From Rhodobacter sp. (GTDB lineage: Bacteria > Pseudomonadota > Alphaproteobacteria > Rhodobacterales > Rhodobacteraceae), in the NCBI GenBank assembly GCA_030065095.1, contig JASJDP010000017.1:124001-188000 (forward strand): DNA of 64,000 nucleotides, given 5' to 3'. The translations under genes and the position numbers were made by a program. Below, one piece after another: positions 4,779 through 9,200 of the stretch (the stretch's first letter is position 1; the number at the start of each line of letters is the position of its first letter). The notes beneath the pieces were generated by a model. It was not told where the DNA came from. It worked only from the letters and a program-made list of their open reading frames with translations, and did no database searches.

Positions 4779-5564
4779 ATGCGCCGATTACTCGTCTGCC
4801 TTCTTGCCGCCGCTGCCATGCCCGCGCAGGCGCTCGAGCTGGAGTTGCGCGGATTTTACGACCTGAACCGTCCGGCAAGCCTGGACTACGACCCGACCTT
4901 TTGCGGGCTCTGGATTGCCAACGAAGGGCCGGAAGTGATTCTGGTGACGCTGGACGGGCTGGAGCTGCAGCGGTTCCGCAGCGGATTGAGCCGGATCAAG
5001 GCCGTGGCGGTCGAGGGCAACGGGCTGTTGGTGGCGGATGGCTATGGCCGGTACCAGCGGCTGAGCAAGTCCGGCGATCCGCTGGGCGATCCGTTCCGGC
5101 TGACGGGAACGTTTTCGGACACCGAGGGCATCGCGGTGGAGCCCGACGGCACGCTGGTGATGGTCGAGGACGATCCGGCGCGCATTCTCTGGACCGATCC
5201 GAACGGCCACGTGCTGCGCGAGCTCGACACAAGCCGGCTCGACCCGCCACTGACCGAGCCGCAGGGCGTCGCGCGGGATCCGCGGAACGGGCATATGCTG
5301 ATCGTCGACGATTGGGAGGGGTCGAACAGCCTTTTCGAGTTCGGCGCGGACGGGGCGCTGTTGGGCACCACGCCGCTGATCGCCTACGGCACCGATCCCG
5401 AGGGGATCGCGATCCGGCCCGGATCGGGCACCGTGTTCATCGCGTTTGACGGCGGGGCGCGGATTGCGGCCTTCGACTATGTTCCCACCGGCGGCGCGGC
5501 GTCCGACCCCGATACTGCCGACTGCATGATTTCGGGTTTGCGGAGCGGTCCGAAACCCGTATAA
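4779..5564 (+). CDS. Exported beta-propeller (NHL/SdiA-regulated-like) protein
   Basis: A 261-residue protein with a signal peptide (MRRLLVCLLAAAAMPAQA) preceded by a good ribosome-binding site (AAGGAG). The mature part has propeller-like repeats: GLWIANEGPE, GLLVADGYGR, DTEGIAVEPDGT, GVARDPRNGHMLIVDDWEG and DPEGIAIRPGSGTVFIAFD. This suggests a periplasmic 5-6-bladed propeller related to the SdiA-regulated/esterase-like phytase group. No catalytic residues could be assigned. It is divergent from the SDR gene and ends over the -10 box of the next operon. Confidence 0.7.
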   Translation: MRRLLVCLLAAAAMPAQALELELRGFYDLNRPASLDYDPTFCGLWIANEGPEVILVTLDGLELQRFRSGLSRIKAVAVEGNGLLVADGYGRYQRLSKSGDPLGDPFRLTGTFSDTEGIAVEPDGTLVMVEDDPARILWTDPNGHVLRELDTSRLDPPLTEPQGVARDPRNGHMLIVDDWEGSNSLFEFGADGALLGTTPLIAYGTDPEGIAIRPGSGTVFIAFDGGARIAAFDYVPTGGAASDPDTADCMISGLRSGPKPV

Positions 5565-5565
5565 T
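5538..5565 (+). promoter_or_regulatory. Promoter of the cupin-leuA operon
   Basis: A perfect -10 TATAAT (5560-5565) with a -35-like TTGCGG (5538-5543) at 16-bp spacing. The -10 overlaps the stop codon of the preceding propeller gene. Transcription would begin near 5571-5573, that is, almost on the ATG of the leader peptide. Confidence 0.65.
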
Positions 5566-5572
5566 CGCGCCC

Positions 5573-5659
5573 ATGAGGACCAAGGGCGATATGGCTGGTA
5601 TTCCTGCGCACCGCGCGGGCACGCTCCTTGACGGCCTCCTGCTCCTTAGCCGCCTCTGA
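5573..5659 (+). CDS. Leucine-rich leader peptide of the cupin-leuA operon
   Basis: A 28-codon frame, ATG 5573 to TGA 5657-5659. Seven of its codons are Leu (codons 18, 19, 22-25 and 28), with four consecutive ones CTC CTG CTC CTT at 5636-5647. Leader peptides rich in the end-product amino acid are the sensor of ribosome-mediated attenuation, and leuA is two genes downstream. The predicted transcription start falls within about two bases of the ATG and there is no room for a ribosome-binding site, so it is probably translated from a leaderless mRNA. The Leu codons overlap bases that can pair with the ribosome-binding site of the cupin gene. The assignment rests on codon content, position and RNA complementarity. 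Confidence 0.75.
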   Translation: MRTKGDMAGIPAHRAGTLLDGLLLLSRL

Positions 5660-5718
5660 GCGCAGCCTTCGGCGCGACCGCTCAGAGGATGCTTCCGCGC
5701 CAAGACACGGGCTAAGGA
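5643..5718 (+). promoter_or_regulatory. Leader RNA fold sequestering the cupin ribosome-binding site (translational attenuator)
   Basis: TCCTTAGCC at 5643-5651, inside the last Leu codons of the leader, is perfectly complementary (9 bp) to GGCTAAGGA at 5710-5718, which holds the ribosome-binding site 7 bases before the cupin ATG. Enclosed by this helix is a perfect 10-bp hairpin, CCTCTGAGCG (5653-5662) with CGCTCAGAGG (5679-5688), whose left arm contains the leader stop codon. There is no U-run after the hairpin, so a transcription terminator is unlikely. A ribosome stalled for lack of Leu-tRNA would keep 5643-5651 from pairing and free the ribosome-binding site. The mechanism is inferred; the complementarity is seen. 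Confidence 0.65.
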
Positions 5719-5725
5719 CTATGCT

Positions 5726-6082
5726 ATGAAGAAAATCAACCTGCAGGAGAAGCTTCGGCTTTTCGAGACCCATTGGGACCCGCATGTGGTCGCCGATTAC
5801 AACGACAACGACGTCATGGTGGTGAAGTTCAAGGGCGAGTTCCCGTTTCACAAGCACGACGCCACAGACGATTTCTTTCTGGTGCTCGAGGGTGAACTGA
5901 CCATGGACTACGAGGATCATCCGCCCGAGAGCTTCGGTGCCGGAGAGATCGTCGTGGTGCCGAAGGGCGTCGTGCATCGACCCCGGGCGGCCGAAGAGGT
6001 CAAGGTGCTTTTGATCGAGCCGAAAGGCGAACCGAATTCGGGCGACGCCGACCGCGCGCCCGCCGCGAAACCCCGGATCTGA
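5726..6082 (+). CDS. Cupin-domain protein, first gene of the leuA operon
   Basis: A 118-residue single-domain cupin. Cupin motif 1 is FPFHKHDATDDFFLVLEGEL (two His, later Glu) and motif 2 is GEIVVVPKGVVHRPRA, so a metal site of the H-x-H...E...H type is complete. The C-terminal tail is short and polar. ATG 5726 is chosen because a strong ribosome-binding site (TAAGGA, 5713-5718) precedes it; an ATG at 5721 is too close to that site. It is 12 bases upstream of leuA. It may be a small-molecule binding or isomerase-type protein; its link to leucine synthesis is positional only. Confidence 0.85.
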   Translation: MKKINLQEKLRLFETHWDPHVVADYNDNDVMVVKFKGEFPFHKHDATDDFFLVLEGELTMDYEDHPPESFGAGEIVVVPKGVVHRPRAAEEVKVLLIEPKGEPNSGDADRAPAAKPRI

Positions 6083-6094
6083 GGGATCAAGACG

Positions 6095-9200
<3,106 letters not shown>

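Follow-up and report, generated by a model that had tools for sequence, protein, structure and literature searches.

A candidate leucine-responsive translational attenuator with a probably leaderless leader peptide upstream of leuA in Rhodobacteraceae

In translational attenuators of the erm type, a ribosome stalled in the leader frees a masked ribosome-binding site. Another arrangement, the LEU element, was predicted by Seliverstov et al. (2005) upstream of actinobacterial leuA, and consists of a leader frame with a run of leucine codons, a pseudoknot, and a base stem in which the leucine codons pair with the leuA Shine-Dalgarno box (PMC1262725). The authors left the mechanism of the LEU element open and favoured a binding protein; mutations of the leader codons of Streptomyces leuA, as cited in that paper, had little effect and did not fit classical attenuation (PMC1262725). 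The leuA leader of Streptomyces lividans, MRFGLLLLSCRGEGL followed by a stop codon, is transcribed leaderless and without a typical intrinsic terminator (PMC8079986). Another known leaderless leader peptide is trpL of Sinorhizobium meliloti (PMC10117765, PMC7298713).

The window analysed here is a stretch of 64,000 nucleotides of Rhodobacter sp. DNA; all coordinates are positions in it, and all parts described lie on the + strand. leuA, encoding 2-isopropylmalate synthase (6095-7711; PF00682, PF08502, PF22617), is preceded by a small cupin gene (Cupin_2, 5726-6082; PF07883, E=1.7e-12) that is the first gene of the operon in this genome. Ahead of the cupin gene lies a leader frame (5573-5659), MRTKGDMAGIPAHRAGTLLDGLLLLSRL followed by TGA, with 28 codons, of which seven specify leucine and four are consecutive. 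The -10 box of the leader promoter, TATAAT (5560-5565), is separated from the leader ATG at 5573 by 7 bases; a weak -35-like TTGCGG (5538-5543) may belong to the same promoter, and a consensus promoter scan found no full sigma-70 site. The last leucine codons (TCCTTAGCC, 5643-5651) form a perfect 9-bp complement with GGCTAAGGA (5710-5718). The latter segment is the cupin gene's Shine-Dalgarno region, and its distance from the cupin ATG at 5726 suits a ribosome-binding site. Enclosed by these two strands of a base stem is a 10-bp central hairpin, CCTCTGAGCG (5653-5662) with CGCTCAGAGG (5679-5688), and the leader stop codon (5657-5659) falls inside its 5′ arm. The original prediction had named a perfect TATAAT just before the leader ATG, a 28-codon frame with seven leucine codons including four in a row, the match between leucine codons and ribosome-binding site, the hairpin, and the lack of a U-run after it; every one of these was found where it had been placed.

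The window sequence alone folds only weakly better than chance (z=-2.2 for 5639-5730 and z=-0.4 for the whole leader). Comparison within the family lifts the pairing far above chance, since the arrangement recurs in nearly all genomes and its pairs covary. A collection of leuA upstream regions from 130 Rhodobacteraceae, about one per genus, showed the leader and hairpin ahead of leuA in all 130, each with an open frame that has a leucine-rich tail (typically LLLLSRL before the stop codon) and terminates in the first hairpin arm. A covariance model, R1, built from 70 of these sequences matches 287 of the 296 family genomes sampled, among them Paracoccus pantotrophus (L164), and nearly always as a single copy; two genomes, G025 and G249, have two matches each. 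The element is not in Rfam 15, a search of which around the element, at the gathering threshold and at E<=5, returned only a chance snoRNA match. Lopatovskaya et al. (2010) or Vitreschak et al. (2004) may already have described it, so priority is uncertain.

The original prediction had proposed looking across Rhodobacteraceae genomes for compensatory changes in the two pairing segments and for retained leucine codons, and both are seen: the 9-bp pairing is kept together with the frame. Across the 130 genomes, pairing of the leucine run with its own downstream sequence has a mean energy of -14.8 kcal/mol, against -12.25±0.22 kcal/mol when partners are swapped between genomes, and none of 20000 permutations, which ignore shared ancestry, was as good as the true pairing. 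A second test used leaders with CTTAG, anchored on a downstream CT[AG]AG and scoring the next base, which had no part in the selection. In 50 of 59 such leaders that base forms a Watson-Crick match with the wobble base of codon -5, compared with 25.6±3.4 (maximum 38) under permutation with kinship ignored. The CT[AG]AG partner was not found at the standard register in 36 of the 95 CTTAG leaders, many of which pair in a shifted one, and some genomes build the base stem in a shifted register of the leucine run. In the 70-sequence alignment, which was picked for pairing and hence leans toward structure, the codon -5 pair is CG in 33 sequences, UA in 17, GC in 7 and AU in 3, and the hairpin is paired in 98.7% of cells. 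Where the leader has CTAAG and not CTTAG, the downstream sequence is often CTTAG (L137, L139, L141).

Within the base stem there is a further helix that had been missed in the original prediction. GGCGCG (5671-5676) in the hairpin loop complements CGCGCC (5696-5701), forming an H-type pseudoknot, so the order of the pairing strands is a-b-c-b′-c′-a′. The minimum free energy fold, computed by a program that cannot represent pseudoknots, shows a small loop hairpin at this place instead. Pairing of the loop with its own downstream strand scores -17.65 (permuted, -16.22±0.19), and the two bases flanking the helix, one preceding the 5′ strand and one following the 3′ strand, are a Watson-Crick match in 81 of 124 genomes (permuted, 41.4±4.7, maximum 63), both permutations ignoring kinship. 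A GGTGC loop is met by GCACC in six genomes and G-U pairing is tolerated in seven others; GCACC alone occurs in no genome with GGCGC. Base stem and pseudoknot are therefore both predicted helices supported by covariation. The hairpin loop of the relatives also contains a near-invariant GTGCC (alignment columns 30-34), for which the base stem does not account. Two pairings are available to the loop strand, a local one with GTGCC (median loop fold, -4.0 kcal/mol) and one with the downstream strand (-13.8 kcal/mol); the local pairing could take the place of the pseudoknot, a choice between two folds like that described for the LEU element of Actinobacteria.

The leucine codons are the conserved part of the leader peptide, the N-terminal half of which varies among relatives. 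Leucine at codon -4, which lies within the base stem, is invariant (130/130), and this codon is CTT or CTA in 97% of leaders, versus 9% of leucine codons in the leuA genes. Codons -6 and -7 sit outside the core stem, and they specify leucine in 123 and 111 of the 130 leaders, respectively, with a wobble base that takes all four values, as fits selection for decoding. The codon choice at -4 and the retention of leucine at -6 and -7 would together fit selection for sensing the leucine supply, with codon -4 constrained by pairing as well.

A leaderless leader peptide, as originally predicted, is backed by the position of the promoter. A TAnnnT motif lies 7-8 nt ahead of the in-frame ATG in 92 of the 127 leaders; among other ATGs of these upstream regions the figure is 11 of 1804 (0.6%). 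Only 2 of the 127 have a Shine-Dalgarno-like sequence before the leader ATG. Given the usual distance from a -10 box to the start of transcription, the transcript is predicted to begin at or within 1-2 bases of the ATG, and the leader is probably leaderless.

With the frame, pairings, covariation, promoter position and distribution directly observed, we infer the transcription start site, the translation of the leader and the direction of the response. The element is probably a leucine-responsive translational attenuator of the LEU-element type, in which a ribosome stalled on the leucine codons would free the start of cupin-leuA translation. With transcription starting at or next to the leader ATG, ribosomes would begin the leader without a Shine-Dalgarno sequence. 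When charged tRNA-Leu is ample, the ribosome would reach the stop codon in the hairpin arm and leave; the RNA would then fold into the hairpin-pseudoknot, with its base closed by pairing between the last leucine codons and the translation start region of the following gene (the cupin gene in the window, leuA in most relatives), and initiation there would be shut. When leucine is short, the ribosome would stall on the leucine run. The 5′ strand of the base stem would then lie under it, while the hairpin and pseudoknot could still fold; the Shine-Dalgarno strand would remain single-stranded, and cupin-leuA would be translated.

These positions can be set against the usual ribosome footprint, which reaches some 15 nt past the P site. 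With one of codons -7 to -4 in its A site, a ribosome would cover the 5′ strand of the base stem and leave most of the hairpin clear, and a ribosome at the stop codon would cover the hairpin arm. Stalling on leucine codons should consequently free the 3′ strand, and release after termination should let the stem close.

The cupin gene had been named as the direct target. This holds for the window genome and, counting it, for 10 of the 130 genomes, in which a cupin gene lies between leader and leuA (L031, L038, L040, L041, L047, L048, L059, L124, L140 and L148); in the other 120, leuA itself comes next. The cupin copy in L059 looks degraded. Where a cupin gene intervenes, its start codon is preceded by the 3′ strand of the stem, which in most of the ten loci contains an AAGGA-type Shine-Dalgarno sequence. 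In the 120 genomes with leuA directly downstream, about 19 nt separate the end of the stem from the leuA ATG and the stem does not end on the Shine-Dalgarno bases, so masking may affect the docking site instead; the structure would there block docking of the ribosome.

An alternative, which we regard as unlikely, is that the RNA is a binding site for a protein or ligand, as in a riboswitch, and that the leucine-rich frame is incidental or secondary. A compact pseudoknot with a closing base stem would suit such a site, as would the near-invariant GTGCC of the loop, which goes beyond what the base stem explains, and a binding protein is what Seliverstov et al. favoured for the LEU element. It is kept mainly because the Streptomyces experiments, as cited there, do not fit simple codon-driven attenuation (PMC1262725). 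The open frame, with leucine invariant at codon -4 and conserved at -6 and -7 despite a free wobble base, argues against it, as do the promoter tied to the leader ATG and the other alphaproteobacterial families, which keep the leader and base stem without a detectable pseudoknot.

Control of termination before cupin-leuA, by classical or Rho-dependent transcription attenuation, is very unlikely. Leader peptides of the leucine-rich leuA type are usually transcription attenuators, which counts in its favour. The same is true of gammaproteobacterial leucine-rich leuA leaders, which control transcription, as in Shewanella (PMC2659441). The sequence after the hairpin is T-poor: in most relatives 0-2 T follow it directly, and no 8-nt stretch of the next 70 nt has more than 5 T. 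No terminator-like site was found on this strand, and no intrinsic terminator is seen; this speaks against the intrinsic type, not against termination by Rho. The covarying partner of the leucine codons is, moreover, the ribosome-binding region of the next gene. The idea that there is no regulation, and that a pyrimidine-rich leucine run pairs by chance with a purine-rich ribosome-binding site, can be given almost no credence: leucine codons (CTN) do resemble an anti-Shine-Dalgarno sequence and the whole leader of the window folds no better than shuffles, but the compensatory changes, the family-wide conservation and the permutation tests contradict it.

The translational reading made in the original prediction is thus favoured by the covarying pairing and the missing terminator, while its comparison with erm leaders gives way to the LEU element as the nearest relative. 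None of the findings that would have counted against the original prediction appeared: the base pairing was conserved along with the frame, relatives had no terminator with a U-tract, and the -10 box lay close to the leader ATG. What is proposed here resembles erm in that a stalled leader ribosome would release a masked site; the erm stall depends on a drug and the nascent peptide, whereas here the N-terminal half of the peptide varies and the leucine codons are kept. The gammaproteobacterial leu leader (Rfam Leu_leader; Shewanella leuA attenuator, PMC2659441) has a leucine-rich leader peptide before leuA and responds to charged tRNA-Leu, as the present element presumably does, but it acts by an intrinsic terminator and antiterminator, which were not seen in the Rhodobacteraceae element, and Rfam finds no match to its family there. 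The alphaproteobacterial trpL of S. meliloti has an mRNA starting with the leader AUG, as predicted here, and differs in using Trp and in being a transcription attenuator with a terminator (PMC10117765, PMC7298713).

With the LEU element the present element shares its position upstream of leuA, a frame with a leucine run, a pseudoknot from the hairpin loop and the lack of a terminator, together with, in the window and at the other cupin loci, a base stem between leucine codons and a Shine-Dalgarno region, there that of the cupin gene. The LEU element also appears to be leaderless, as judged from the Mycobacteriales and from the S. lividans leader (PMC8079986). Gathered with a Tsukamurella LeuA query, 80 Mycobacteriales leuA loci (81 with the query) all have a hairpin whose loop GACCGGC pairs with a downstream GCCGGTC, and their leucine codons face the leuA Shine-Dalgarno region; TAnnnT lies 6-8 nt before the start codon at 58 of 79 loci. 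The covariation at these loci (p 0.08 and 0.13) comes from sequences too conserved to decide. The alphaproteobacterial element differs from the LEU element in that R1 detects no likeness of sequence (no match up to E=10 among 13 Mycobacteriales leuA loci), in that the Rhodobacteraceae stop codon lies inside the hairpin arm with the leucine run closer to the stop, in the cupin gene as the directly controlled gene of the window genome, and in the lack of a detectable pseudoknot in alphaproteobacterial forms outside Rhodobacteraceae. The plan is the same and the sequence is not, so the element, which would work like the LEU element, is filed as a variant and not a proven member.

Outside the family, hairpin and base stem precede leuA in most of the other alphaproteobacterial families sampled, and the model matches examined lie mostly just upstream of leuA. 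The leader tail there is often LRLxxP before the stop codon (CTTCGACTTAGGYGCCCCTGA), with the hairpin kept; the base stem scores -16.3 (permuted, -13.1±0.47, kinship ignored), its 3′ strand can include a GAAGG-type Shine-Dalgarno sequence of leuA itself, and the pseudoknot was not detectable (p = 0.42). In some families the element is absent or escaped the search. Three R1 matches outside Alphaproteobacteria in a phylum search, with no leuA start motif in the stretches examined, are treated as chance for that reason. Occurrence of the arrangement in 287 of 296 family genomes and, with a different sequence, in mycobacteria and relatives makes a widespread switch very likely, one that would turn on leucine synthesis when leucine is short. 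A tentative and rather doubtful extension is that leuA translation in Alphaproteobacteria and in Actinobacteria alike is governed by one ancient class of leucine attenuators, leaderless and pseudoknotted, with the leucine-run wobble positions doubly constrained by decoding and by pairing to the ribosome-binding region.

The element offers a testable leucine-synthesis switch for a large group of environmental bacteria, missing from Rfam 15, and tractable hosts in which to decide whether the LEU element is protein-bound or ribosome-driven. The wobble bases of its leucine codons are a clear natural case of one stretch serving at once as coding sequence and as RNA structure, and its leader would start independently of Shine-Dalgarno pairing, whereas the gene it controls depends on such pairing.

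Two further features touch the start of the leader. Residues 6-7 are His-Ile, mostly CATATC, in 52 of 92 leaders, against 4.6±2.0 in shuffled leader bodies; these codons lie outside all known helices, are absent from the window leader, and are possibly a signal for leaderless initiation. Immediately 5′ of the -10 box in the window is an inverted repeat, CGGGTTT/AAACCCG (5533-5559), which overlaps the end of an upstream phytase-like frame; the TAA stop codon of that frame is part of the TATAAT.
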